DNA from: Gottschalkia acidurici 9a
GTDB lineage: Bacteria; Bacillota; Clostridia; Tissierellales; Gottschalkiaceae
Assembly: GCF_000299355.1 (NCBI RefSeq)
Contig: NC_018664.1
Span: 1,472,380 to 1,536,379, forward strand
Direction: 5' to 3'
DNA: 64,000 bases
A program made the position numbers and the translations under genes. Shown piece after piece: positions 33,475 to 46,715 of this stretch. The stretch's first letter is position 1, and the number at the start of each line of letters is the position of its first letter. The notes under the pieces were generated by a model. That model was not told the origin of the DNA and did not search any database. It saw only the letters and a program-made list of their open reading frames with translations.

Positions 33475-34443
33475 TTGAAACATAGACTAGAATGCATTGA
33501 TGCAGGAAGTGAATATTGTCCTTGTTACTTAGCTGAAACAAATGATTGTATAACGTGCTCACACTTACAAGGAAAGGAATTTTGTGAGTGTAATTGGAGG
33601 GGAATATGCATATATCAGGAATATGTTATGAATGGTTGTAAGAGGAAAAAGCAAAGGGAGTCTAATGTTGCTAAAGTAGAGGAGATAAAAAATATAAGTG
33701 ACAATTGCATTATATTAAAACTTAAAGTAAATAACACATTAGCAAGACAATTGAAGGAACCTGGTGCTTATGTTTTTTTAAGAGGAGAAGAGTTACCACA
33801 TTATTTCGATACTCCAATGTCTATAATGGATGTAGATGAAGTAAATGGATATATATATATAGCGTATCAAATATTGGGATCTAAAACAAAGAAACTTGAG
33901 AAGGATAGAGAAGAGTATCTAGTTAGAGGACCTTACTGGAATGGATTATATGGAATGAAAAACTTAAAGAAAGTATCAAACAAGGAATGTCTTGTAGTAG
34001 TAAAAGGAATTGCACAAGCACCAGCAATACTGGTAGTAAAGAAATTACTTAAGAACCAAAATAATGTGACGTTTATCGTGGATAAAGGAGCTATAGGAGA
34101 TGTGTTTATAAAGGATTTTATAAAAGGTTTAAATATGAAAACTATAGAAACAAATCTCCAGAGTAGTAGTGGTGAAATGTTAATTAAGAATATCCTAAAA
34201 AATAATGATATAGGATTAGTTTATAGTGGCGGATCTGATGTACTTCACAGTTCAATAATAAGAATGATTGATGAAACTAAAAAAGATCCATTTATAGTAG
34301 TTACTAATAATAATGAAATTTGTTGCGGGGAAGGAGTTTGCGGTGGATGTACTATAAGGCTAGCAGATGGAGTAAGAGCAAAATCTTGTAAAACGCAATT
34401 AGATGCAAGAAAAGTAATAGAGAGGAGAGTTCTTAATGACTAA
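33475..34443 (+). CDS. Dihydroorotate/sulfide-dehydrogenase-like electron-transfer flavoprotein
   Basis: 322 residues from a TTG after GAGAGGAGG. An N-terminal region with eight cysteines (about 5-62) is followed by a ferredoxin-reductase-type FAD domain, an NAD domain and a C-terminal 2Fe-2S loop CCGEGVCGGCTIR like that of PyrK. It overlaps the next oxidoreductase by 8 bp, so the two form an operon and probably one electron-transfer complex. Substrate unknown. The partner gene is interrupted by the 11-kb element. Confidence 0.82.
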   Translation: MKHRLECIDAGSEYCPCYLAETNDCITCSHLQGKEFCECNWRGICIYQEYVMNGCKRKKQRESNVAKVEEIKNISDNCIILKLKVNNTLARQLKEPGAYVFLRGEELPHYFDTPMSIMDVDEVNGYIYIAYQILGSKTKKLEKDREEYLVRGPYWNGLYGMKNLKKVSNKECLVVVKGIAQAPAILVVKKLLKNQNNVTFIVDKGAIGDVFIKDFIKGLNMKTIETNLQSSSGEMLIKNILKNNDIGLVYSGGSDVLHSSIIRMIDETKKDPFIVVTNNNEICCGEGVCGGCTIRLADGVRAKSCKTQLDARKVIERRVLND

Positions 34444-35230
34444 AGTTATAGTTATTGGAGGAGGATGGGCCGGATGTGCAGCTGCACTAAGTGCTAAAAA
34501 AGCTGGTGGTGATGTCACATTAATAGAAAAAACAGATCTTTTAGTAGGACTAGGTAATGTAGGCGGTATAATGAGAAATAATGGTAGATTTACTGCTACA
34601 GAAGAAAATATTTTACTGGGTGCTTCTGAACTATTCAATATAACAGATAAAGTAGCTAGACATAAAAATATAAAATTTCCGGGACATGATCATGCCACAC
34701 TATATGATGTTACTAAAGTAGAACCCGAGGTAAGAAGATTGTTAGAAGACAGAGGTATAAAAGTGCTTCTTGAAGCCAGAGCTATGGACGTTATAATGGA
34801 AGATAGTAAATTAAAAGGTATAGTATTAGCAGATGAAACTATAGTATATGGTGATGTATTTATAGAAACTACTGGATCCACGGGGCCAATAGGTAACTGT
34901 TTAAAATATGGAAATGGTTGCTCCATGTGCATATTAAGATGTCCTTCATATGGGCCAAGAGCAAGTATTAGTAGTTTAGCTGGAATTGAAGATATAGTTG
35001 GAAAAAGAGGAGATGAATGCTATGGTGCGTTTAGTGGATCTTGCAAGTTAAATAAAGATTCATTAAGTAAAGAGGTTATTGAGACCTTAAATAGGGAAGG
35101 CGTAGTGATACTAAAAATTCCAGATGAGGATATAAACTTAGAAAAACTTAATATTAAGGTTTGTCAGCAATATGCATTAAAGGAATTCGCACAGAATGTG
35201 ATCTTACTAGATACTGGTCATGCACTATGA
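34436..35230 (+). CDS. FAD-dependent oxidoreductase, 5' part (split by element)
   Basis: 264 codons as it stands. The N-terminal dinucleotide fold is VIVIGGGWAGCAAALSAKKA, followed by an FAD-family middle domain with ETTGSTGPIGNC and a CSMC segment. After LLDTGHA the frame runs into the element and stops at once (TGA 35,228-35,230). The C-terminal cap that closes FAD in this GidA/TrmFO-like family is missing here and is found 11 kb downstream at 46,214. Unless the element excises, this product is probably inactive. Confidence 0.9.
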   Translation: MTKVIVIGGGWAGCAAALSAKKAGGDVTLIEKTDLLVGLGNVGGIMRNNGRFTATEENILLGASELFNITDKVARHKNIKFPGHDHATLYDVTKVEPEVRRLLEDRGIKVLLEARAMDVIMEDSKLKGIVLADETIVYGDVFIETTGSTGPIGNCLKYGNGCSMCILRCPSYGPRASISSLAGIEDIVGKRGDECYGAFSGSCKLNKDSLSKEVIETLNREGVVILKIPDEDINLEKLNIKVCQQYALKEFAQNVILLDTGHAL

Positions 35231-35243
35231 ACAAAAGAACAAC
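35221..35243. other. attL of the intervening element
   Basis: The TGCAC core (35,221-35,225) is followed by the left 18-bp inverted-repeat arm (35,226-35,243). The recombinase stop codon (complement of CTA at 35,225-35,227) lies across core and arm. Confidence 0.85.
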
Positions 35244-36940
35244 TCTGAATTGAGTTGCTCCAGTTCATCAATTGTATACTCCCTTGTGGAAAAATCACCA
35301 TAATTGCTATCAGGATCCGTACTAGTACCTATAAATTTAATTCTTATTTTTTTCTTATCACCGTACCAATATATAGTGTCTATTAAAGCATTTATTAGTT
35401 GTTTTTGTTCTTCTCTAGAAAGTTTATCAATTAAAGCACATCTATTTAATATACTTGAAATAAAACTAATATCTAATTGTTCCATTTCTATATCTTTTGT
35501 TTCACTATCTATATTTTTTAATTTCTTGCTAAGGCCATTACATTCTTCTTTTAATGATTTTATTTTATCCATAAGTATCTCATCTATACTAGTATTTATA
35601 GAGAGCTTATTAACTAAATTATCTATCTGAAGTTTCTTTTCCTTCAAAGTATTTTCGATTGTGACTTTTTCTAATTCACTTTTACTATTAGTTAGGATTT
35701 CTTTATTTTTAGATTTCAATTTACATATGTATTCATTCTTTTCTTCGGCAAGTTTTTTAAGGCTAGCTATAACTAAATCATCTAACTCTGAAGCATTAGC
35801 ATTCTTATTATCACATAGCTTTTTTCGAGATTTTTTTTTAAGAGAGCATACATAGTAAAATACTTTTTCACCTGTAACCTTAGACACTCTTCCATGCTGA
35901 ACAGTCATATAACTGTCACAATAGCCACATCGTATTTTACCTGTTAAAAGTACATTGTGAGTTTTTCCGAGTCGTGGAAACTTATCTCTATTTATATCAA
36001 ACTGTTCTTGCACTTTTAACCATAGATCGGGTTCTAAAGCTCCCTTTATTTTGCTGACGGCCGCAAATCTTTTGCCAGTAGTGTTTACTAACTTAACACT
36101 TTTACCACCTCTACTAATATTTTCAGTTTTATTGTAGGTTAGTAGTGAGTGCATACCATCAGGCTCTCCATATATTTCCCAATTATTTTTCAATAGGTAG
36201 TCAATTACTTTATTACTAGATTTCACATATACAGGATTTTGAAGAATTATTTTTAATGTAGATTTCTCATATATTATACCATTTGTTGATTTTATATTGT
36301 TTTCATGCATATAGATTTCAAGTTTATGTAAACTACCTAACTCTAAGTATTTTTCATATAGGAACTTAACAAAATTCATTTCTTTTTCATCTATAATTAA
36401 AAGAGATTTTTCTTTTTTAGATCCTTTGTTATCTATATATACTACTTTTTCAGAATTAAATCCTAATGGTATTCTACCACCTGTCCATCTTCCATTCTTA
36501 GCAAGCTCAATCATATTGTCTTTTATGCGTTCAGCAATAGTCTCTCTTTCTAACTGTGCAAATACACTAGCGATATACATCATAGCTCTTCCCATAGGTG
36601 TAGAGGTATCGAACTGCTCCCTTATAGAAATAAAATCTATTTTAAGAGATTGCAATTTTTCAACTAGGACAGAAAAGTCAGCAACATTCCTACTTATTCT
36701 ATCTAATCTATAGCACACTAGAACATCAAACTCTTCATTTCTAGCGTCTTTCATTAATTTTTTAAACTGAGGTCTATCAGTATTCCCACCAGAGAATCCT
36801 TCATCTTCATAACATATAAATTTAAGATCTTCACCTAACTGTCTAGTAGCAAAGCTTTTACACATTTCAATTTGATTTTCAATACTATCTCCTTTTCCTG
36901 TAAACTTAGATTTACGGGAGTATATAGCAACTCTTTTCAA
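35225..36940 (-). CDS. Large serine site-specific recombinase (SpoIVCA-like)
   Basis: 571 residues from a TTG after AAAGGAGATG. The resolvase domain (about 1-150) has the nucleophile Ser8 in AIYSRKS, CYRLDRISRN and GRAMMYIASVFAQLERETIAERI read in parts. The recombinase domain (NGRWTGGRIPLGF), a zinc ribbon (CGYCDSY ... CSLKKKSRKKLC) and a C-terminal coiled coil follow, the layout of SpoIVCA, TnpX and phage integrases. It should integrate and excise the element at attL/attR. The length and motifs are intact, so the enzyme looks functional. Confidence 0.94.
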   Translation of the reverse strand: MKRVAIYSRKSKFTGKGDSIENQIEMCKSFATRQLGEDLKFICYEDEGFSGGNTDRPQFKKLMKDARNEEFDVLVCYRLDRISRNVADFSVLVEKLQSLKIDFISIREQFDTSTPMGRAMMYIASVFAQLERETIAERIKDNMIELAKNGRWTGGRIPLGFNSEKVVYIDNKGSKKEKSLLIIDEKEMNFVKFLYEKYLELGSLHKLEIYMHENNIKSTNGIIYEKSTLKIILQNPVYVKSSNKVIDYLLKNNWEIYGEPDGMHSLLTYNKTENISRGGKSVKLVNTTGKRFAAVSKIKGALEPDLWLKVQEQFDINRDKFPRLGKTHNVLLTGKIRCGYCDSYMTVQHGRVSKVTGEKVFYYVCSLKKKSRKKLCDNKNANASELDDLVIASLKKLAEEKNEYICKLKSKNKEILTNSKSELEKVTIENTLKEKKLQIDNLVNKLSINTSIDEILMDKIKSLKEECNGLSKKLKNIDSETKDIEMEQLDISFISSILNRCALIDKLSREEQKQLINALIDTIYWYGDKKKIRIKFIGTSTDPDSNYGDFSTREYTIDELEQLNSELFFCS

Positions 36941-37007
36941 ATTTTCATCTCCTTTGCTTTTTAGTGTTTAAATTAGTACATATTATAATATATATTTTTA
37001 ATTGCTG

Positions 37008-37037
37008 ACTTTATGAACTAATTACTTTATTATATTA
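37008..37037 (-). promoter_or_regulatory. Candidate sigma-E-type promoter of the recombinase
   Basis: Reading the - strand, TAATATA (37,037-37,031) matches 6 of 7 positions of the sigma-E -35 consensus KMATATT; 15 bp later CATAAAGT (37,015-37,008) matches CATACANT except for one base. It lies about 70 bp before the TTG. Mother-cell sigma-E drives spoIVCA in Bacillus. The region is very AT-rich, so chance matching is a real risk. Confidence 0.35.
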
Positions 37038-37107
37038 CTGTTTATAAATATATTAGAGTGTAAACTCTAATACCAACTGAAGTATGGGAAAATAACGTTT
37101 TTATATA

Positions 37108-37136
37108 TTGAAATATGTGCCTCGATATAGTATGGT
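37108..37136 (+). promoter_or_regulatory. Candidate sigma-A promoter before the Spo0E-like remnant
   Basis: TTGAAA (37,108-37,113) and TATGGT (37,131-37,136) are 17 bp apart and lie 35 bp before the start codon. Confidence 0.4.
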
Positions 37137-37170
37137 TAAGCGATAATGTTGATTAAATGAGGCGATAAAA

Positions 37171-37300
37171 ATGGATAAAGATAAATTAATTAGAAAAGAG
37201 CTAAGACTAATTATAGGAAGATTAGGATTGCTTAATAATAATTGTCTAAAATTAAGCACTTGATAATTTGATACTAGATTATGTATATCTTTATCTCTAA
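37171..37300 (+). pseudogene. Spo0E-like aspartyl-phosphate phosphatase, frameshifted
   Basis: After TGAGGCG and ATG the frame reads IRKELRLIIGRLGLLNNN then CLKLS and stops at 37,263. In a shifted frame the sequence continues ALDNLILDYVYLYL to TAA at 37,300. Together they match the Spo0E pattern (two short helices with an S-x-x-x-D signature, here LS..ALD). A 5-bp loss between AAGC repeats would explain the break. Spo0E proteins dephosphorylate Spo0A~P. Family call is by pattern only. Confidence 0.55.
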
Positions 37301-37709
37301 TTTGATTAACTTCACTATATAATTTCTATCTATCAATTATAATATATTCAGATTTGATCCATATAAATGATAAGTTAAAGTCTGAGCAGATCTGATGCTA
37401 TTAGAAATTATATGACTTTTTTATAAATTATTGTTGGTAACTATAAAAGTTATCATTAATAGTTTATTCTCTAGGTGTTGAACTATAGTTATTAATATTA
37501 GCATCTATGTCTTTACATTTTGCGATATCAGAAATAGAAGTTAGTACTAATATAAATATTAAAACAGTTGATACAAATTTTCTTTTTATCTACAATCATT
37601 ATAAAAACAATAAGCTCAAATATTTTCTAAAAAGCATGTATCTATCGCAAAATTTGACATTTATTTAAATGTGTAAAATTAGCAATCAATCAAATGATTT
37701 TACAATTCC
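37301..37709. other. Element intergenic region
   Basis: About 400 bp with no supported + strand gene. On the - strand between 37,599 and 37,464 a broken frame resembles a small exported peptide (VSTVLIFILVLTSISDIA then a short polar tail), but the only ATG is out of frame with it. Confidence 0.4.
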
Positions 37710-37751
37710 TGTCGGAAGATGTCGACAAAAGCCCTACTTCTCTAATATAAC
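37710..37751 (+). promoter_or_regulatory. Promoter with two tandem 0A-box-like sites before the agr module
   Basis: TGTCGGA (37,710-37,716) and TGTCGAC (37,720-37,726) each match 6 of 7 bases of the Spo0A box TGNCGAA and start exactly 10 bp apart, one helical turn. The second overlaps a -35-like TCGACA (37,722-37,727), followed 18 bp later by TATAAC (37,746-37,751). This is the layout of promoters that Spo0A activates. The agr sensor gene starts 38 bp downstream. Confidence 0.55.
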
Positions 37752-37788
37752 AATAAGTGTTAAGATTAATATAAGAGGTGATGTATTT

Positions 37789-38643
37789 GTGGATATTATG
37801 ACTCTTAAGGAAATATTAATAGTAGGTGTACCAGAAGTATTTATTGTAATTTTAATAGGATTAGTACTTGGATTTAGTAATGATTTTTTTAAACAGATAA
37901 GACTATGGGGTTTAAAACTTTTCATATCAGTAATGTTTATTTTAATAGGTATATATTTTATTAGGAGTAGAGCAACAAGTATTCAAAGTATAAGTATATT
38001 TTGTCTTATTACATATATAGCAAGTTATAAGTTTATATTCGAGATGAACACTAGAAAAAGTATAATAATTGGAAGTATAGTTATGTTTCTAATACTTTCA
38101 TCAGAAATAGTTACATTTCCAGTTTTAAAGTATATAGAAAATGGAGTCTATTTTAAGAATAGAATTAATGTAACTATTATAACTAGAGTTATTCAGATTA
38201 TTATTTTAGTATTGTTTTATAAAGCTAATATGCACATAAGTAATATAAATATGATCTCGTGTAAATGGAGAGATCTTAAGATTAAAGAAAAAATAACTAT
38301 TGTATTTATAATATCTTTATTAGTATTATGCGTAATATTTAATGCTAGCTATTCAGACTTATATGTAAAGTTAAATATTAGTAATTTAAAACTTGAAGAT
38401 AGCTATATAAGATTAAACATGTTTATGTATTTTATGGAAAATATACTTTTTATATTCATAGTATTGTATCTTCTTAACAGAACAAAAAACTATTATATTT
38501 TTGAGGAATTTTTATTACAGGGAGATGAAGCAATCCTTCGTGACTTATTAGAATTAGCAGATGAGGAGAGAATTAGGGAGTATAAAAAAATCTGTGATCA
38601 ATATCTTGAAGAATTAGATATACCTAATAGGGTGACTGAATGA
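37789..38643 (+). CDS. AgrC-like membrane sensor without kinase domain
   Basis: 284 residues from a GTG after GAGGTG. Six or seven membrane segments fill residues 9-240, followed by a 45-residue acidic cytoplasmic tail (LLELADEERIREYKK). No H-box or ATP-binding domain is present. It overlaps agrD by 4 bp (ATGA). By layout it resembles the pheromone-sensing half of AgrC; whether it senses the peptide, exports it or gives immunity is unknown. Confidence 0.6.
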   Translation: MDIMTLKEILIVGVPEVFIVILIGLVLGFSNDFFKQIRLWGLKLFISVMFILIGIYFIRSRATSIQSISIFCLITYIASYKFIFEMNTRKSIIIGSIVMFLILSSEIVTFPVLKYIENGVYFKNRINVTIITRVIQIIILVLFYKANMHISNINMISCKWRDLKIKEKITIVFIISLLVLCVIFNASYSDLYVKLNISNLKLEDSYIRLNMFMYFMENILFIFIVLYLLNRTKNYYIFEEFLLQGDEAILRDLLELADEERIREYKKICDQYLEELDIPNRVTE

Positions 38644-38780
38644 ATAAAAAGTTTGCTCTTAAACTAATAGAAACTACTATGAGGTTAATAGTTTCTTTAT
38701 TTTCAATGTTAGCCGTACAAGCTCAAACATGCTCTGCAGCATTTTGGAAAACTAAAATGTCAAAAGCACTAGAAAAATAA
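38640..38780 (+). CDS. agrD: AgrD-like cyclic autoinducer peptide precursor
   Basis: 46 residues, too short for most gene finders. An amphipathic N-terminal helix (residues 3-26) leads to AQTCSAAFW and then the charged tail KTKMSKALEK. The cysteine at position 31, five residues from an aromatic pair, fits a thiolactone ring of the CSAAF type, and the tail is the part AgrB recognises. It overlaps the sensor gene and is followed by a hairpin. agrB lies two genes later. Confidence 0.8.
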   Translation: MNKKFALKLIETTMRLIVSLFSMLAVQAQTCSAAFWKTKMSKALEK

Positions 38781-38812
38781 GAACAGGAGCTTCCTCCTGT
38801 TCTTATTTAAAG
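38779..38812 (+). terminator. Hairpin between agrD and the Spo0A-C-like gene
   Basis: AAGAACAGGAG pairs with CTCCTGTTCTT around a 4-nt loop and is followed by ATTTAA. It could favour high agrD output over the downstream genes. Confidence 0.75.
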
Positions 38813-38825
38813 AGGAGGGAGTTAG

Positions 38826-39113
38826 TTGAAAATAACTGAATTACTTAATGAGCTTGGAGTAGATAACTTCAGGGATAGAGCATTTCTGTATAAAATAATA
38901 TCTATATTTAAAGGAAATAATCAGTGTGATAATTTCGTTCAAACTATTATAAATGAATTTGAAAGAGACTATTCTACTATAAGAAAGAGAATGAAGAGAA
39001 TTATAGAAAGTAATGAAAATAATATATCAAATGTACTAGATATACAAAAGGATAAATTAACAAGTAAGGCTTTTGTACAAAAGCTAATTAAAAAAACAGG
39101 AGCAAAGAAATGA
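38826..39113 (+). CDS. Spo0A C-terminal-domain-like DNA-binding protein
   Basis: 95 residues from a TTG after AGAGGAGGG. It aligns by eye along the whole DNA-binding domain of the chromosomal Spo0A in this window: ITELLNELGV against [25 protein letters not shown] against [15 protein letters not shown], and KLTSKAFVQKLIKK against [14 protein letters not shown]. There is no receiver domain, so it cannot be phosphorylated like Spo0A. It overlaps agrB by 4 bp. It may act at 0A boxes, including those before this operon. Confidence 0.7.
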   Translation: MKITELLNELGVDNFRDRAFLYKIISIFKGNNQCDNFVQTIINEFERDYSTIRKRMKRIIESNENNISNVLDIQKDKLTSKAFVQKLIKKTGAKK

Positions 39114-39700
39114 ATGGAATTATTAAACTATTTGCATATAAAATATATAAACATACCGATAAATATAACAAAGATAAACATGATAAAGACGAATGGAGAG
39201 AAGTGTTAGAATATATAGTTTATAGAATCATGACATTTACTCTACTTATAACAATGCTAGTTATATTATCAAATCTATTTACAATAGATAATGATATATA
39301 TGTATTTACTATTAGCTTTTTAATTTTAAAAAGAAAGTTTGGTGGAATGCATCTAGAAAGTGAAGTGGGATGTTTTATATTAAGTCTAATATTTCCACTC
39401 ATCGTATATTTCTTATTTAAAAATACTCATACCCAAAGCGAAATTCTTATAATTATGAGCATTACTTCTGCTTTCATGCTGGCTAAAATAGGAACGGTAG
39501 ATAATGTAGTGAGAAAGCTAAAGAAAGAACATAAATTAAAGTTACAAAAACAGGGGATTATAGTCCTAATAATAATGTTATCAATAAATTTATATACAAA
39601 TAATCAGTTTATATCTTTAGCGCTAATTTTTACAGTAATAAACTGCTTAATTGGTAAAATTCAATATATTAAAAAAATTGCAGGACATGAGAAAAAATAA
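39110..39700 (+). CDS. agrB: AgrB-like peptide-processing membrane protease
   Basis: 196 residues with four to six membrane segments and the AgrB catalytic block KRKFGGMHLESEVGCFILSL, which holds the conserved His and Cys. AgrB removes the AgrD tail and forms the thiolactone. It is translationally coupled to the Spo0A-C-like gene. An intact protease, precursor and sensor-like protein make the module plausibly functional. Confidence 0.88.
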   Translation: MNGIIKLFAYKIYKHTDKYNKDKHDKDEWREVLEYIVYRIMTFTLLITMLVILSNLFTIDNDIYVFTISFLILKRKFGGMHLESEVGCFILSLIFPLIVYFLFKNTHTQSEILIIMSITSAFMLAKIGTVDNVVRKLKKEHKLKLQKQGIIVLIIMLSINLYTNNQFISLALIFTVINCLIGKIQYIKKIAGHEKK

Positions 39701-39774
39701 TATAATAAAGCTCACAAACAAATATTCCTTTTATGCTGTAGACTTATTAGTATAAGACAAGGAGGAATATAGTA

Positions 39775-39834
39775 ATGATAAAATATATACTTTGGTATGG
39801 TAATTATATAGATAAATATGGCTGCGATATATAA
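39775..39834 (+). CDS. 19-residue peptide with strong ribosome site
   Basis: AAGGAGGAATATAGTA precedes an ATG opening a 19-codon frame rich in Tyr and Ile (MIKYILWYGNYIDKYGCDI). It lies directly before a large palindrome. It may be a tiny peptide or the cut-off start of a lost gene. Confidence 0.35.
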   Translation: MIKYILWYGNYIDKYGCDI

Positions 39835-39850
39835 GCTTAGATTATAAAGC

Positions 39851-39910
39851 TAGTTAAACAAAAGAGAGGTAAAATCTATTAATAGATTTTACCTCTCTTT
39901 TGTTTAACTA
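39851..39910. terminator. Perfect 60-bp palindrome
   Basis: Bases 39,851-39,880 and 39,881-39,910 are exact reverse complements with no spacer; the arms contain AAACAAAAGAGAGGTAAAAT and its complement. On RNA it would form a long hairpin ending the agr transcript from either side, though no separate U-tract follows. Confidence 0.75.
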
Positions 39911-40131
39911 AGGATATGTTGAATTTTGTATTTTTTAAAAGAATTCTCAAAGCGTTTATATATTTAGTAATTTTACATATTACACTGTAATAATTTAAAT
40001 ACAGATAAATTTTATCATTTCTTAAATGAAGTCATTTAGATTTATTTTAATAGATTCTAAACTAGATATTTCTATGTTCCTAATCTTTTAGTTATCTATA
40101 TATTAGTGTTAGAATATTGGAAAGTAACACT
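39911..40131. other. AT-rich spacer inside the element
   Basis: No gene or RNA recognised. Confidence 0.4.
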
Positions 40132-40248
40132 ATGGAAAAAGTTAAGATAAAACTATCCTATAAATATAAGCTCATAAAAAGAAGTAAGTGCAGGCTAAGC
40201 TATAAGGTAGTGAAGAAGTATATTTACTTCAAATTAGTTAATTATTAA
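40132..40248 (+). CDS. Possible 38-residue very basic peptide
   Basis: ATG after TTGGAAAG opens a frame with 11 Lys and 2 Arg among 38 residues (MEKVKIKLSYKYKLIKRSKC then RLSYKVVKKYIYFKLVNY). It has no recognised family; it could be a phage-type small protein or chance. Confidence 0.25.
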   Translation: MEKVKIKLSYKYKLIKRSKCRLSYKVVKKYIYFKLVNY

Positions 40249-40323
40249 CTTAGCTTTAAACTAGCTAATAGACTGTCATAGGACATTCAGTGGTACACAT
40301 AGCATTTAGTAAGGAGGTTGAAA

Positions 40324-40485
40324 ATGTATAAAGTTGAACTGATTTTGCCTAAAGATATTCAACCATTAAAAGAAAGAATGACTGATGTACTCACAGATAT
40401 ATGGATAAAGAAGTTAGGTACAAAAGAGAAAGTAGATCATCTTATAAAAGAATTAGAGAAAGAAGATATAGAAGAATTTCTTTAA
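40324..40485 (+). CDS. Small element protein, 53 residues
   Basis: A near-perfect AAGGAGGTTGAAA ribosome site precedes the ATG. The product is soluble and helical, with a charged C-terminus (VDHLIKELEKEDIEEFL). No family recognised. It may be the first gene of the phage-type cluster that continues at 41.2 kb. Confidence 0.55.
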   Translation: MYKVELILPKDIQPLKERMTDVLTDIWIKKLGTKEKVDHLIKELEKEDIEEFL

Positions 40486-41262
40486 AAAAGACGTAAGATA
40501 AACACAACATTAGACTTTAAAAATTATTTGTATATAGTTGCTTTTTACAGTATTAAAGGATTAATCTTAAATTTTAAGAAAAGGACAAAATATAACGAAA
40601 GGTAGTGCATTAATAAACCTTCGCTATAAAAATAGAATTAAATAACGTGTGCTGCTATAGAATATACAATTAGATCTTATGATTTACACTAAAATACGGT
40701 TGAAAATAATAATAACATAATAAGAAGATCTTAAATGTTTAATATAATTATTTAACTATTAGAATCGAGGAATAATACTATGAGACTCTACAGTTTATAA
40801 GATAGAGCTATAGATATAATAGTTATCAGTATATATAATGACAAACACAAGAAACAATAGAACTAAAAGTGAAGATTATAGCTTTATTGGCCAATAAATT
40901 AAAAAGAAAAAGGTTCTTCAGATCTGACACTCTGAAGAACTTAAACTTGATAGCTTAAAAATATGTTTAATATAAGCGTTATACTACATAGAAATGAGCT
41001 TTATGAAGAGAAATAATTCAATAATTTAAATCTCTTAGAACTATTATAAAAGTTATCAATATCTCCTTTAAGAACAAAGTGTAAAGAAAAAATACAAAAG
41101 AATATACATGCTTTAAAGAATCATTATTTAAATCTTTAAAAAATAACGATAGCATAAAAATTTTAAAAAAATAGTGATTGGATAAAGGATACATAAAAGA
41201 AGAAAAAGAGATTTTAAATAGATCACAAAAAACTAGAGAACAAGTTATAGCTTTAGGAATGA
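40486..41262. other. Decayed DNA inside the element
   Basis: Nothing intact. Short frames such as KEEKEILNRSQKTREQVIAL (41,178-41,312, TTG start) look like a phage-gene remnant. Confidence 0.4.
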
Positions 41263-41451
41263 ATGACGAAAATGATTATGAAAATTATAAGAGATGTTAT
41301 AAATACTCATAAACCTTTAGGTCTGTTTTGGGCAAAAGATACCAAGGCTAATTTATATATAGCAGTAAATAATAATATAGGGAAAGCTTATAAACAAAAG
41401 TTCAAATCACTAGAAGAATGCATAAATTGGTTAATGAAGGAGGAAGTATAG
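41263..41451 (+). CDS. Small phage-type protein, 62 residues
   Basis: The frame ends KSLEECINWLMKEEV and has TLYIAV-like strands (KANLYIAVNNNIGKAYKQKF), a pattern of short phage proteins of unknown role. The ATG at 41,263 has a weak AGGA close by; 41,272 is an alternative start. Three more small genes follow closely in the same direction. Confidence 0.5.
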   Translation: MTKMIMKIIRDVINTHKPLGLFWAKDTKANLYIAVNNNIGKAYKQKFKSLEECINWLMKEEV

Positions 41452-41453
41452 TG

Positions 41454-41696
41454 ATGTATACAGAGTCAGTAGAATCACTAAAAAAAGTAGAGTTAGCCAT
41501 AAATACTTTAAATGATTTAGAAGGTGATGAAGCAATTAGTGGTGATGAGATTTTAAATATAATAGAGCCTTCAACTGAACGCTTACATGAACTTAGAATA
41601 AGATTAAAATTAGATATTAATAAGTGTCAAGAGGACAGGTATTCACTAAAAGAAGATAAAGCAGATATCTTCAGAAAGATAGCAAAAGGATATTAA
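41454..41696 (+). CDS. Small phage-type helical protein
   Basis: 80 residues from the ATG at 41,454, preceded by GAAGGAGGAAG; a GTG at 41,451 is also in frame. The product is mostly helical and acidic (VELAINTLNDLEGDEAISGD). It lies upstream of a Rad52-like gene, where phages keep recombination accessory genes. No family recognised. Confidence 0.55.
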   Translation: MYTESVESLKKVELAINTLNDLEGDEAISGDEILNIIEPSTERLHELRIRLKLDINKCQEDRYSLKEDKADIFRKIAKGY

Positions 41697-41698
41697 AC

Positions 41699-41902
41699 AT
41701 GAAAAAGCTTATAAAGGAATGGAAATACAGACTTAAAAATATAGATGAAAACTTACAGATACACATAAAAGCAATTGAGAATAAAGAATATACAAAAGAC
41801 ATGAGAGACTATGCAAGAAGTAGAGTGATTAGTTTAACAGAATATAAGAATCTTATAGAAAGTACAATAGAAGCACTTGAGAAAGTGAAAGAGGAGGTAT
41901 AG
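41699..41902 (+). CDS. Small phage-type coiled-coil protein
   Basis: 67 residues, helical throughout (WKYRLKNIDENLQIHIKAIE), starting 2 bp after the previous stop and ending just before the Rad52-like gene. The previous gene's last codons (AAAGGATATTAA) provide the ribosome site. No family recognised. Confidence 0.5.
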   Translation: MKKLIKEWKYRLKNIDENLQIHIKAIENKEYTKDMRDYARSRVISLTEYKNLIESTIEALEKVKEEV

Positions 41903-41905
41903 AAA

Positions 41906-42586
41906 GTGAATATCAGGGCATTAAGGTCTGATGAAATAGAATGTAGAGTACAAACAGTAAAGCAAAATGGATGTTCTTTGCTTCTGTTTAAAGATGCAAG
42001 ATGTGATATGAAAATACTAGATGAAACCTTTGGAATAATGGGATGGCAAAGAAAGCATGAGCTTATAAATAATAACCTGTTTTGTACTATATCAGTTTGG
42101 GATAAAGATAAACAAATGTGGATTAGTAAACAAGATGTTGGAGTTGAAAGCTATGCAGAAAAAGAAAAAGGGCAAGCATCAGATAGCTTTAAAAGAGCAT
42201 GTTTTAACTTAGGTATAGGTAGAGAACTTTATACAGCTCCTTTTATATGGATTAGTTTAAATAGTAATGAGATAATTGAGAATAAAGGAAAGTATAATGT
42301 CAAAACAAAGTTTAGAGTTAAAGAAATAAGTTATAACGAAAACAAAGAGATAGATAGACTAGTTATAGTTGATAACCAAGGAACAGTAAGATATGAGACA
42401 GGAAAGCATATAAAAGCAGACAATATTAATCGCAATACGAACAGTAAAAGCAACACTGAAAAAGATAAAGAAACAGACTATAAGTGCTTAGAATGTGGAG
42501 TAGATATTATACAAGCAGTAAATGCATATAGCAATAATAAATTTGGACGAGCATTGTGTAGAGATTGTCAAAATAAGCAAAGGTAG
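41906..42586 (+). CDS. Rad52/DdrA-like single-strand annealing protein (phage type)
   Basis: 226 residues from a GTG after GAGGAGGT. The core MGWQRKHELINNNLFCTISV, QDVGVESYAEKEKGQASDSF and KRACFNLGIGRELY is the pattern of the phage Rad52/DdrA annealing family. A C-terminal zinc ribbon (CLECGVDI ... ALCRDCQ) follows. Such proteins pair complementary strands during phage replication and recombination. It points to a phage origin for the element. Confidence 0.8.
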   Translation: MNIRALRSDEIECRVQTVKQNGCSLLLFKDARCDMKILDETFGIMGWQRKHELINNNLFCTISVWDKDKQMWISKQDVGVESYAEKEKGQASDSFKRACFNLGIGRELYTAPFIWISLNSNEIIENKGKYNVKTKFRVKEISYNENKEIDRLVIVDNQGTVRYETGKHIKADNINRNTNSKSNTEKDKETDYKCLECGVDIIQAVNAYSNNKFGRALCRDCQNKQR

Positions 42587-42594
42587 ATGAGATT

Positions 42595-42702
42595 ATGAGG
42601 AGATACAGCTATGAAGAATATCTACGAATATGTTATTGGAATGACGAAGAACCAATGACTGAGAAAGAGTATGCAGAGTTTTTAGAAACTAATTATGACT
42701 AA
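42595..42702 (+). CDS. 35-residue small phage-type protein
   Basis: A short acidic frame (MRRYSYEEYLRICYWNDEEP) starting 8 bp after the Rad52-like gene with GATGAGAT upstream and ending before a terminator. Likely a real small phage gene, but the evidence is context only. Confidence 0.4.
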   Translation: MRRYSYEEYLRICYWNDEEPMTEKEYAEFLETNYD

Positions 42703-42710
42703 GTAAATAT

Positions 42711-42742
42711 AGGGGTCTCTACAATAAGAGATCCCTAATAAA
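42711..42742 (+). terminator. Terminator of the phage-gene cluster
   Basis: AGGGGTCTCT pairs with AGAGATCCCT (one G.U) and is followed by AATAAAAAG; it ends the 41.2-42.7 kb cluster. Confidence 0.65.
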
Positions 42743-43319
42743 AAGATATATAAATATCATGCTTGTTATAATTGTTCTATTACTAAGAATAATGAAAGTC
42801 TGTGCTGAAAATCATGTTATGGGAAACCCAAAATACAAAAAGAAAATAATATTGATTTTGAAAATATTTCAATCAATACAAAGAACTTTTAAATTATATG
42901 ATATTACAAATAAACATTATATCTTATAACGAATCTGGCTTGAATAAAGAATACTCCCTAGCTTCAACGCTTTAAGTTTTACATTCACTTATAGTGATAG
43001 AAAACAAAGATTTTCTAAAAAAATATAATAATGAAAATACCTCATTGATAAAGAGAAAACTTAAGCAGTAAAGACATAAACAGTCGCTAAAAACAAGATT
43101 TTTCAAGAAATGGAGGTAAAAGAGAAAGAGTTTAGAAAAAATCATAAAAGACTTAAGTCTATATTGGGATTTCATGAAGATTTAACTAAAGCTAGAGTAA
43201 TTTTAAGAACAAGTTCATATGTGAAAATTTGAAATAGTAAATATTTAGGATGGTATCAGAGAAATAAAGGAATATTATCTTTTACATAGAAATTTATATG
43301 TAAAGGGGAGTGATAGTAG
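42743..43319. other. Decayed element DNA
   Basis: No intact gene. A 40-codon frame at 43,110-43,232 (MEVKEKEFRKNHKRLKSILG) lacks clear support. Confidence 0.4.
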
Positions 43320-43549
43320 ATGGATAAAGATAAAATTATAAATCATATAGGTGAAAATTTTAAAAAGGATGCCCTATGTGTAATGGCATGGAATGGGATA
43401 TATGCAATAACTTATCAAGCAGCTATCCTTTAAGCAGTAAAAACGGTAGTTATGAGTGGGAACAAAAAGGAAAGGTAAATCCTGTAGTAGAAGTTATATG
43501 CTTACATTGTGGATTTGTAGCGGGAATATCTACTTTAGTAATGAGATAG
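43320..43549 (+). pseudogene. Zinc-finger phage protein, frameshifted
   Basis: ATG after AGGGGAGTG opens MDKDKIINHIGENFKKDA. A second frame then carries CPMCNGMEWDICNN and, near its end, CLHCGFVAGISTLVMR up to TAG at 43,549. Joined at about 43,370 they give a 75-residue protein with a CxxC...CxxC zinc ribbon, so a single frameshift has probably killed it. Confidence 0.6.
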
Positions 43550-44337
43550 AGACTAAGAGCCTACTTGTTGTTCTTTTAATCTTAAAAAATAATTAAAATA
43601 TTTGAGTAAATATAGAATCATAAATAATTGAACAAATTATAAAGTTAAATTAAATATCTATGTTAATTGCTGAAATGGCGGAAATATAATAAAAAATAAA
43701 TAATTTTAAACATAATAACAAAGAAAAAGATAAGTGGCTGATAGCTTAGAGACAACAAAATCACTTTTAATAGACCTTTAAAGGGCTAGTATATGACAAT
43801 AGAGAGGATCAATAACTTTACATTAAGGCTAGAAAACGGAAATATAAAAAATTATTTTAAAGATGTCCAAAAGCACCATAGACAAAATATTGACATGCTA
43901 GCAAGTTATATTCGCAACCGAAAGAGAAGATAGAAATTAAAGGAGAAATATATCTGAAAAGGTTTTGGAGAGGTAATCCGGATTATAAATCAAGAGATCT
44001 TGTATGTGAAATATTACAAAATGATAGGAAATCTACCGAGAAGTTAAAAAGGTTAACTTAATTTAAAAAAGGGTCTAAGCAGCAAAGGCTCTTTTTTATG
44101 TAATAAGGCAATTTTAATATGTATACGAGCATAACGTAAGTGTTATACAATGATAAAAATGATTATTCTTTTTACTCCACAAAAATAATATTTGTTAAAA
44201 TGATATTTAGAGAGACTTAATTTCTTTATATGGCTTATATGCTATATATAATATCTTTATCTTAATATCCTAAGATCTACTTATTGTTGAATTTCAATAT
44301 TTACAAATACTACATACGACTTCCAGTAAATGTTTGA
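43550..44337. other. Decayed element DNA
   Basis: Fragments only: a 46-codon basic frame at 43,793-43,933 (MTIERINNFTLRLENGNIKN) and a frame ending LVCEILQNDRKSTEKLKRLT at 44,061. Neither has a convincing ribosome site. Confidence 0.4.
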
Positions 44338-44520
44338 TATAATGAATTAAGATAAATATTATAATTTTACTATCTATGAAGTTTAATTATATAAAAGTAG
44401 ATGAATTCTTATGAGAATAAAACGAATTAATTACTCGGTGCAGTTTATATAAATGATAGTATATTGTACCGAGAAAAGAAAAATATTACTATCAGCGTAA
44501 CTGCATCGTCCTTTTTAGTA
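44315..44520 (+). promoter_or_regulatory. Promoter and attenuator-like leader of the methyltransferase gene
   Basis: TATAAT (44,338-44,343) has a weak -35, TACGAC, 17 bp upstream. The leader can fold two ways. CTCGGT (44,434) with ACCGAG (44,468) forms a short hairpin. Alternatively 44,436-44,445 pairs with 44,499-44,508 over ten positions, enclosing GATAGT/ACTATC, and is followed by CCTTTTT, a terminator. The two share bases, so only one can form. A 13-codon frame (MRIKRINYSVQFI, 44,411-44,452) crosses the switching arm. Confidence 0.5.
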
Positions 44521-44548
44521 TCCAGATAATATTAGGGAGGAAAGGGTT

Positions 44549-45307
44549 ATGAATCGTGATAGACTTAGAAGAATATGGAAGAAGGAAGAGAATAAGGTTT
44601 TTAAAGGATGGGATTTTTCTTATTTAGACAGCAGATGGTATGATGAAAAGCTACCTTGGAACTATAAAAAAATATTAAAAGAGTATTTAAAATCAGAATA
44701 TAAAATACTTGATATGGGAACAGGTGGAGGAGAATTCTTATTATCTTTAAATCATCCATATAATAAAACTTCAGTTACAGAGATGTGGGAACTTAATATA
44801 AAAGTATGTAAGGAAAAACTAGCTCCGCTAGGTATTGGTGTGTACCAAATATACCAAGATAAAATCTTACCTTTTAAAGATAATTCTTTTGACATGATTA
44901 TAAATAGACATGAATCGTATGATGTAAAAGAAATAAAGAGAATATTAAGGCCTAGAGGTATATTTATTACTCAACAAGTTGGTGGGAGAAATAATGAAAT
45001 TCTTTCGAATCGGTTAATAAAAGATTTTAACCCGCAATTTAAGAACATTAGCTTAGATAATGCTATATACGAATTAAAAGAAAACTTCTTTAACATCATA
45101 TATAAGAATGAGTATTTTCCATACTTACATTTTTATGATGTTGGTTCTATTGTATACTTTGCAAAAATCATAGAGTGGGAGTTTCCAAACTTTTCGGTAG
45201 ATAGTTGCTTTAATGAACTATATGACTTATATAAAGAACTAAAACAAAAGTCATATGTAGAAAGTTTTGAACACAGATTTATTATAGTATGTAAAAATAT
45301 AAAATAG
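44549..45307 (+). CDS. Class I SAM-dependent methyltransferase
   Basis: 252 residues with motif I LDMGTGGGEFLLSL, LPFKDNSFDMIINRHESYD and EIKRILRPRGIFITQQVGG, the usual SAM fold of small-molecule or macromolecule methyltransferases. It has its own promoter, a regulated-looking leader, a GGGAGGAAAGG ribosome site and a terminator, so it is a free-standing cargo gene. The leader layout recalls antibiotic-inducible resistance genes, but the substrate is not evident. Confidence 0.85.
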   Translation: MNRDRLRRIWKKEENKVFKGWDFSYLDSRWYDEKLPWNYKKILKEYLKSEYKILDMGTGGGEFLLSLNHPYNKTSVTEMWELNIKVCKEKLAPLGIGVYQIYQDKILPFKDNSFDMIINRHESYDVKEIKRILRPRGIFITQQVGGRNNEILSNRLIKDFNPQFKNISLDNAIYELKENFFNIIYKNEYFPYLHFYDVGSIVYFAKIIEWEFPNFSVDSCFNELYDLYKELKQKSYVESFEHRFIIVCKNIK

Positions 45308-45319
45308 CTACTTATATAA

Positions 45320-45360
45320 TAAGGGGTTTGATATCTAACATTCAAACCCTTTAAATATTT
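45320..45360 (+). terminator. Terminator after the methyltransferase
   Basis: AAGGGGTTTGA pairs with TCAAACCCTTT; AAATATTTT follows. Confidence 0.8.
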
Positions 45361-46194
45361 TATAATTTTATGTTAGATTTAAAAGTATATTAGTGTATTG
45401 ACAGAAGAAGTAGATAATACTATTACTGTTATAAATATTTCAATATCTTAATAAATAAATAAAAAACTAAAATATGAAAGTAAACAATAAATAAAAACAT
45501 ATATAAATATGGGAGCTTATATAGAGTAAATGGATCAATAAGTATTGCCTGTAGAAAAGGATTAAAAAGATTTAAAGATAGAATTGAGGCATTTACATAT
45601 AATGGATCGAAAGGTAATAATAATGCAATGTAAAGGTGAGGAAAAAAGAGAGTCTGTAATTCCAAAATGCACTATTTTAATTGGACAGTATTGAGAAAAA
45701 ATATGAGCATATTATTTAGGATATTACATGATCAAATAGTATTAGAACTTTAGATAGTTAAATGTTAATGTATCAGACGAAATCTTGAAAATATTTTAAA
45801 TATGTCATATCAGTCTGTATTAAAATCTTTAAGTGAAAGGGACAAAGAGAAACTATGAAACAAATAGCAATAGTTTAATAAATAGATATCATTTTAATTA
45901 GTAAATGTAATGACTAAACTAATAACTCTAAGTTATTCTAGGGAAAATAATATGCTGTTAAATTATGTTGTGAGAATAAAATTTTAAAATATTGTGGATA
46001 GTATTTTTTGTTTGTAACTTATTAATAAAATTTGTTATAGGAATAAGTTCTACTTATGTTCCATTTAATAATTCTTTAATAGTTGTATTACTCATTTTTC
46101 TTAACTTGCAAAGTATAGTAGATATATTATACCTAGATAGTGTAGAATATAATGTGGAGATGATATTTTCTATATTGATAAATGTGTTTTTAAT
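45361..46194. other. Decayed right end of the element
   Basis: Broken frames such as GLKRFKDRIEAFTYNGSKGN and NLENILNMSYQSVLKSLSER (HTH-like) with stops around them. A hydrophobic TTG frame at 45,992 runs into attR but has no ribosome site. Confidence 0.45.
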
Positions 46195-46218
46195 GTTGTT
46201 CTTTTGTTCATACTGCAC
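46195..46218. other. attR of the intervening element
   Basis: The right 18-bp inverted-repeat arm (46,195-46,212), one C, then the TGCAC core (46,214-46,218). Host sequence ATGCTAAG resumes at 46,219. Confidence 0.85.
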
Positions 46219-46715
46219 ATGCTAAGTTAATGTCTTCATTTTATCCACTTGAAAGATTGAGAAAAATAAGAGGACTAGAAAGTGCTAGATATGAAGATCC
46301 TTACTCAGGTGGGAAAGCTAACTCAGTTAGATATCTTTCCATAGCTCCAAGAGATAATAAAATGAAAGTTGCTGGATTAGATAACTTACTGTGTGGTGGA
46401 GAAAAAGCAGGTTTATTTGTAGGTCATACTGAAGCAATAACTACAGGAAGTTTAGCAGGGCACAATAGTGTAAGATTAAGTTTAGGAATGCCTCTATTAG
46501 AGCTTCCAAGGAATCTTGCAGTAGGAGATATTATTGCTTATGCTAATGAGAGCATAGGTACGAAAGATGGACTTAAGAAAAGATTTACATTTGCGGGTTC
46601 AGAATTTTTTGAAAGAATGAAGGTTACAGGATTATATACTACAAACATAGAGGAAATTAGGAAGAAAATAGATGGATTAAATTTACTTGGAATATATGAA
46701 GAAAAATTAGTATAA
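46214..46715 (+). CDS. FAD-dependent oxidoreductase, 3' part (split by element)
   Basis: The frame carries the missing C-terminal FAD cap: LRKIRGLESARYEDPYSGGK, GLDNLLCGGEKAGLFVGHTE and ITTGSLAGHNSVRL. Joined to 34,436-35,220 it gives one 428-residue protein. An internal ATG at 46,230 (MSSFYPLERL) has no ribosome site, so this part is probably not translated alone. Downstream it is followed by rluB. Confidence 0.9.

Follow-up and report, generated by a model that had tools for sequence, protein, structure and literature searches.

Organization of the operon

The DNA analyzed here is a 64,000-nt stretch of Gottschalkia acidurici 9a contig NC_018664.1 (the window; all coordinates are positions within it unless a locus is named), which carries an operon of agr type in the order receptor–agrD–X–agrB, X being a small protein with a likeness to the C-terminal DNA-binding domain of the sporulation regulator Spo0A (Spo0A-C). 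The four open reading frames (ORFs) are uninterrupted and compact (Table 1) and overlap by 4 bp at two junctions, receptor/agrD and X/agrB, which confirms the layout claimed in an original prediction made from the sequence without database searches. The identity of AgrB is certain from its Pfam match, and the His/Cys pair attributed to it is present, the two residues being seven positions apart. For the signal precursor AgrD, the predicted thiolactone pattern stands in part: Cys31 belongs to a plan in common with relatives, but the window copy has no TIGR04223 match. The AgrD of a chromosomal paralogue reaches the cut-off of that family (19.0 bits), and those of two relatives described below (loci L084 and L085) exceed it. 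All eight precursors compared have a Cys followed by three residues and a bulky residue (F, H, Y or W), with an acidic or proline-rich tail after this ring plan except at L085, where the ring may be longer. Because of the shared C-xxx-aromatic plan, a five-residue thiolactone ring, CSAAF, starting at Cys31, is predicted for the window AgrD.

At the agrD–X junction, the agrD stop codon is included in an RNA hairpin that stops just short of the X ribosome-binding site; relatives have a hairpin at the equivalent place, with variable significance. Its interpretation as a terminator after agrD was rejected, as there is no T-tract. The 3' arm (CUUCCUCCUG) could alternatively pair with the X ribosome-binding site (GAGGAGGGAG; region 38775-38821), and, the agrD stop codon lying within the 5' arm, a translational switch between agrD and X is possible. 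Just 3' of agrB, a perfect, loop-free 30-bp inverted repeat (39851-39910) is a possible bidirectional terminator.

Table 1. Features of the operon, its host element and the host spo0A gene, with positions in the window.
Feature	Position	Strand	Basis
Tandem 0A-box-like sites, TGTCGGA (37710-37716) and TGTCGAC (37720-37726)	37710-37726	+	Match to TGTCGAA
Receptor, kinase-less AgrC-type membrane protein, 284 aa, GTG start	37789-38643	+	hhalign, hydropathy, same-length paralogues and relatives
agrD-like signal precursor, 46 aa	38640-38780	+	Sequence, alignment to chromosomal paralogue, TIGR04223 matches of relatives
RNA hairpin, 15-bp stem	38775-38808	+	-20.3 kcal/mol, z -3.7
X, 95 aa, TTG start, Spo0A C-terminal DNA-binding domain-like, no receiver	38826-39113	+	Family-level comparisons
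agrB, processing/export protease, 196 aa	39110-39700	+	PF04647 E 2.5e-20, His81/Cys88
Mobile element (decayed prophage), ~11 kb	35219-46222		CATGC direct repeat, 35219-35223 and 46218-46222
Large serine recombinase (integrase), 571 aa	35225-36940	-	Resolvase, Recombinase and Zn ribbon; phrog_95 E 1.4e-109
Erf/Rad52-like annealing protein, phage-type	41906-42586	+	phrog_14970 E 1.9e-93; phrog_1097
Host spo0A, 268 aa	11654-12460	+	PF08769 E 9.5e-47; only full Spo0A in the genome

X and the Spo0A DNA-binding domain

A hidden Markov model (HMM) built from five X proteins (those of the window and of four related loci), without any Spo0A, was run on six-frame translations of 391 clostridial genomes. 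It gave 24 non-seed matches at E<=0.01, nine of which are Spo0A genes; the host Spo0A scored best of all (E 1.1e-4). When 1139 ORFs, from a set in which some loci were fetched by X itself and 30 by Pfam, were ranked with this HMM, Spo0A-C proteins were recovered with an area under the curve of 0.99 (38 of 46 within the top 50), against 0.68-0.89 for reversed or shuffled controls. Profile-profile comparison of the X family with Spo0A-C, named in the original prediction as a check on the window copy (38,826-39,113), gave P 1.6e-4 in hhalign and, with a more diverse Spo0A set, an end-to-end alignment over 103 columns (P 4.3e-5, 69%); none of 400 column shuffles reached the real score. At L084, where X (X84) and a Spo0A share an operon, the two proteins also align end to end (27%, E 0.010), and window X aligns with X84 at E 4e-6 and with host Spo0A-C at E 0.017. 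Because the whole-genome scan, the ranking test, the profile comparison and the X84 match agree, X is very probably a remote homolog of the Spo0A DNA-binding domain. The earlier claim that X resembles only this half of Spo0A is thus borne out at the family level, X having no Response_reg match in Pfam, but it finds no echo in the Pfam Spo0A_C family, which misses X.

At the positions aligned to the basic residues of the Spo0A recognition helix, which we take to be Arg214/Arg217, window X has Lys/Lys and X84 has Arg/Lys; X proteins of the G355/G377 type (two of the genomes listed below) are non-basic there. Weak matches of the single X sequence within the order were set aside as spurious, being mostly long unrelated frames.

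0A-box-like sites upstream of the operons

Spo0A recognizes the core site TGTCGAA, in which G2, C4 and G5 are contacted, and the boxes that function in Clostridioides difficile are found at about -67 to -82 of start codons (PMC3485338). Relative to the receptor start, the two tandem sites of the window lie at -79 and -69, a 10-bp spacing; both keep G2, C4 and G5, and they form the only such pair in the 64 kb. Exact boxes are located upstream at L080 (-92), L081 (about -85 to -94) and L084 (-120 and -97, with a further exact box at -73 before its Spo0A), and the tandem sites at L083 each carry one mismatch. Under a definition set after the data had been seen (an exact box, or a 10-bp tandem with <=2 mismatches), boxes occur upstream of 5/5 X-bearing operons, at positions -63 to -120, compared with 4/223 other upstream regions and 1.2% of sliding 200-bp windows, and in no upstream region of the X-less operons. 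The excess of 0A-type boxes at X-bearing operons is large.

These boxes may be sites of action of X, the reading developed below; the main rival is that they are used by phosphorylated host Spo0A (Spo0A~P) alone. In that case, the operon would be switched on at the start of sporulation, X would be a competing or dampening accessory (a decoy or an autorepressor) and not the output of the receptor, and receptor, AgrD and AgrB would constitute a separate signaling branch. The boxes do fit the Spo0A consensus, exactly so at L080, L081 and L084, the C. difficile boxes in the interval given above are functional (PMC3485338), and at the positions used by Spo0A for recognition the X proteins of G355 and G377 are not basic. 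Apart from X, however, no product of the operon is both cytosolic and non-enzymatic, and distant genomes retain X in its place between agrD and agrB. Furthermore, operons with a receptor of this family but no X are without the boxes. Exclusive use by Spo0A~P is accordingly considered unlikely, though not markedly so.

A sensor half without a kinase

The receptor has no kinase domain and no match at all in Pfam or NCBIfam. Hydropathy indicates about 6-7 hydrophobic segments followed by a cytosolic tail of ~50 aa, and in hhalign residues 1-174 align with the sensor half of genuine AgrC kinases (96%, P 1.6e-9). In other Firmicutes, the receptor-family profile picks up full AgrC kinases by their sensor half, as well as small sensor genes that precede separate kinase genes. 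The receptor is not a broken gene, as its length is the same in the three copies of this genome and in relatives elsewhere, and close relatives are likewise without a histidine kinase domain (DHp and HATPase). By these comparisons, it is an AgrC-type sensor lacking the output enzyme, and its earlier description as AgrC-like holds for the sensor half but not for the kinase. The classic phosphorelay from AgrC to AgrA therefore does not apply to this kinase-less receptor; an AgrA LytTR response regulator was found neither among the scanned proteins of the module and element nor beside the relatives.

Alternatively, the receptor could borrow, or heterodimerize with, a host histidine kinase that feeds the host Spo0A, leaving X as a minor modulator. 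An AgrC sensor half would suit such a role, sensor and kinase being split into adjacent genes in other Firmicutes, and the regulation of sporulation initiation by orphan kinases has been a subject of study in clostridia (PMC11210211). Yet no kinase gene adjoins any receptor of the family, and Pfam recognizes no dimerization or phosphoacceptor domain in the tail, which makes a borrowed kinase quite unlikely. Derivation of the tail from a kinase dimerization helix was considered and dropped, as the global alignment is too weak in this region.

Paralogues and relatives

The receptor–agrD–X arrangement recurs in other clostridia. A survey of the 391 genomes with a profile of the three receptor paralogues detected six loci with recognizable receptor operons, spread over four further genomes: G355, G377 (61% complete), G421 (scored as 11% contaminated) and G598. 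L081 has receptor–agrD–X–agrB, and so does L084, where the operon begins with a full-length Spo0A (receiver and Spo0A_C, E 3.9e-28) and a tyrosine recombinase gene adjoins; L080 and L083 have receptor–agrD–X without agrB. At L085, agrB is followed by receptor–agrD and there is no X, and at L082 the order is agrB–receptor–agrD and then a 261-aa protein, the candidacy of which as a Spo0A-like protein in the X position is not supported (P 0.26). Including the window, receptor–agrD–X is present at five loci in four genomes, with agrB directly after X at three. The gene order was recovered without recourse to X, the search having been made with the receptor. At L081 (2078-8571, in G377), the operon lies amid sporulation-looking genes, for dipicolinate synthase subunits, a YtaF-like membrane protein and a SleB-like hydrolase.

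In G. acidurici itself, the chromosomal paralogue (C2:238039-239639, L024) consists of receptor, agrD and agrB with no X, and the agr part is therefore not peculiar to the mobile element described below. This paralogue is followed by a decayed second copy, a receptor–agrD(stop)–agrB remnant (L024 10185-11303), and lies downstream of a sigma-70-type factor gene and small-protein genes (L024 6305-7726), which presumably represent a DUF1659/DUF2922/YvrJ-like set. About 6 kb beyond the window is a 163-bp piece (94%) of a further X copy, and L003 (about 1410-1587) has a fragment with the end of agrD and the start of X beside a CPBP-family protease gene. No matches to X, receptor or AgrB were obtained in 50,697 phage records, 72,556 plasmid records and viral contigs, and none in scans of genome contigs with X and with the three-receptor alignment.

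The mobile element

The original prediction placed the operon on a mobile element, and the boundaries of an ~11-kb prophage remnant can indeed be drawn around it. The serine integrase, 44% identical to a Terrisporobacter phage integrase, sits at one end, and when the flanks are joined at CATGC, an open frame is restored through an interrupted FAD-dependent oxidoreductase gene. Given the phage-like integrase matches and the Erf/Rad52-type annealing protein, which shares 48-59% identity with proteins from phages of Butyrivibrio, Fusobacterium and Ruminococcus, the element is identified as a decayed prophage.

The split halves of the oxidoreductase gene are at 34436-35230 and 46230-46715, in a gene run with scpA, scpB, a YtfJ-like gene and a D-Ala-D-Ala carboxypeptidase gene. 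As precise excision would restore the oxidoreductase gene, a skin-like developmental excision is conceivable. A near-perfect 23-bp inverted repeat (96%) is located at the element ends beside the junctions (35221-35243 and 46195-46217).

A proposed mode of signaling

We favor, at about an even chance, the reading that this is a kinase-less variant of agr with a receiver-less Spo0A-type DNA-binding domain as its output, acting at 0A-type boxes. AgrB would cut AgrD and export it as a small thiolactone peptide (predicted CSAAF), which would be sensed by the AgrC sensor-half receptor, itself incapable of phosphorylation. The output would be X: on its own, the DNA-binding domain of Spo0A needs no phosphorylation to bind its targets (PMC3485338), and X, as a receiver-less binder, would likewise need none and presumably occupy 0A-box-type sites constitutively. 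Its targets may be the tandem boxes overlapping the operon promoter and possibly also host 0A boxes; in its action, it would probably compete or cooperate with host Spo0A~P. The short cytosolic tail of the receptor most likely holds or releases X depending on peptide binding, a role suggested because the receptor is the only co-encoded partner of X and the tail is its only sizeable cytosolic part. An effect of the operon on host sporulation is plausible. In its fullest form, the proposal is one of phosphorylation-free quorum sensing from membrane to DNA, in which capture and release of X by the kinase-less receptor in response to the cyclic peptide would give density-dependent control of 0A-box promoters and of entry into sporulation, in mobile elements and in clostridia; this is possible, if doubtful.

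Several points weigh against X being the output of the operon. The coupling of receptor and X is an inference from the sequences, and X is not essential to the receptor family, the chromosomal paralogue and G598 being without it. The box definition came after the data, and the five loci to which it was applied include four from one family, two of those from one genome. X is unmatched in Pfam (including Spo0A_C), NCBIfam and PHROGs, and the AlphaFold model of its single sequence is of low confidence (pLDDT, the predicted local distance difference test score, 53; six helices predicted) and did not return Spo0A in a fold search. In leave-one-out HMM searches, window X was recovered only at rank 16 and X84 was not found. 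The absence of family matches and the poor model would also suit an unrelated small helical protein, the likeness of which to Spo0A-C would result from a convergent helix pattern and chance, in an ordinary agrBD system with an unknown partner. Such a coincidence is very improbable in view of the enrichment of Spo0A in an unbiased whole-genome HMM scan, the shuffling and reversal controls, the end-to-end alignments and the independent association with 0A boxes.

Puzzling agr loci that lack a kinase or AgrA are common in clostridia. The X-bearing family provides a concrete candidate for how some of them could signal, via a Spo0A-type protein of the same operon, and the association with 0A boxes makes the proposal directly testable. 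If it is true that X is the output, peptide quorum sensing would be coupled directly to the sporulation master regulator, and a (pro)phage would carry both signal and effector.

Comparison with known systems

In the open-access literature searched, neither an agr operon with a Spo0A domain nor a proposal that phages hijack sporulation by means of agr and a Spo0A domain was found, in agreement with the original prediction, which knew of no report of the combination. Its precedent, the agr3 locus (agrDBC) of phage phiCDHM1, is likewise a set of agr genes on a (pro)phage without a response regulator gene, but no Spo0A-like gene is described there, and its AgrC, of 453 aa, has a HATPase domain (PMC3901668) and thus differs from the kinase-less receptor of the window. 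The Agr1 system of C. difficile (agrB1 agrD1), which has been linked to sporulation (PMC8534292, PMC10602386), is also an AgrBD pair without a cognate AgrC/AgrA pair; unlike the window operon, it includes no receptor or DNA-binding gene.

Stand-alone Spo0A_C proteins, receiver-less like X, are found on mobile elements, including prophages and conjugative elements. They match PF08769 clearly and are outside agr operons, whereas X is far more diverged. Short proteins of this kind in the order were considered as equivalents of X and rejected, their contexts being prophage-like or conjugative-element-like and not agr operons. Short Spo0A_C-only proteins occur at L055, L056-L058, L060 and L142; those of 117 aa and 186 aa have prophage-like surroundings, and a ~71-aa family stands beside topoisomerase or conjugation-type genes and insertion sequences. 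L063-L070 encode response regulators of ~280 aa, in which a receiver is joined to a strongly diverged Spo0A_C-like domain (EQRIRRAI motif) that scores below or near the Pfam cut-off.

RRNPP systems, including Rap-Phr, are found on phages beside spo0E or abrB homologs, and hijacking of sporulation has been proposed for them (PMC10075063). They likewise tie peptide signaling on mobile elements to sporulation regulators, but their receptors are cytosolic (tetratricopeptide repeat, TPR) and respond to imported linear peptides, with no AgrB/AgrD or Spo0A-type protein, whereas the window receptor is a membrane protein. With the agr systems of staphylococci and clostridia, the window operon has in common the AgrB His/Cys pair, the AgrC-type sensor domain and, putatively, the AgrD-type precursor. 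Where those systems have a histidine kinase and a LytTR regulator, it has neither and instead carries a Spo0A-C-like protein between agrD and agrB, and we regard it as a new variant of agr with respect to the open-access literature.
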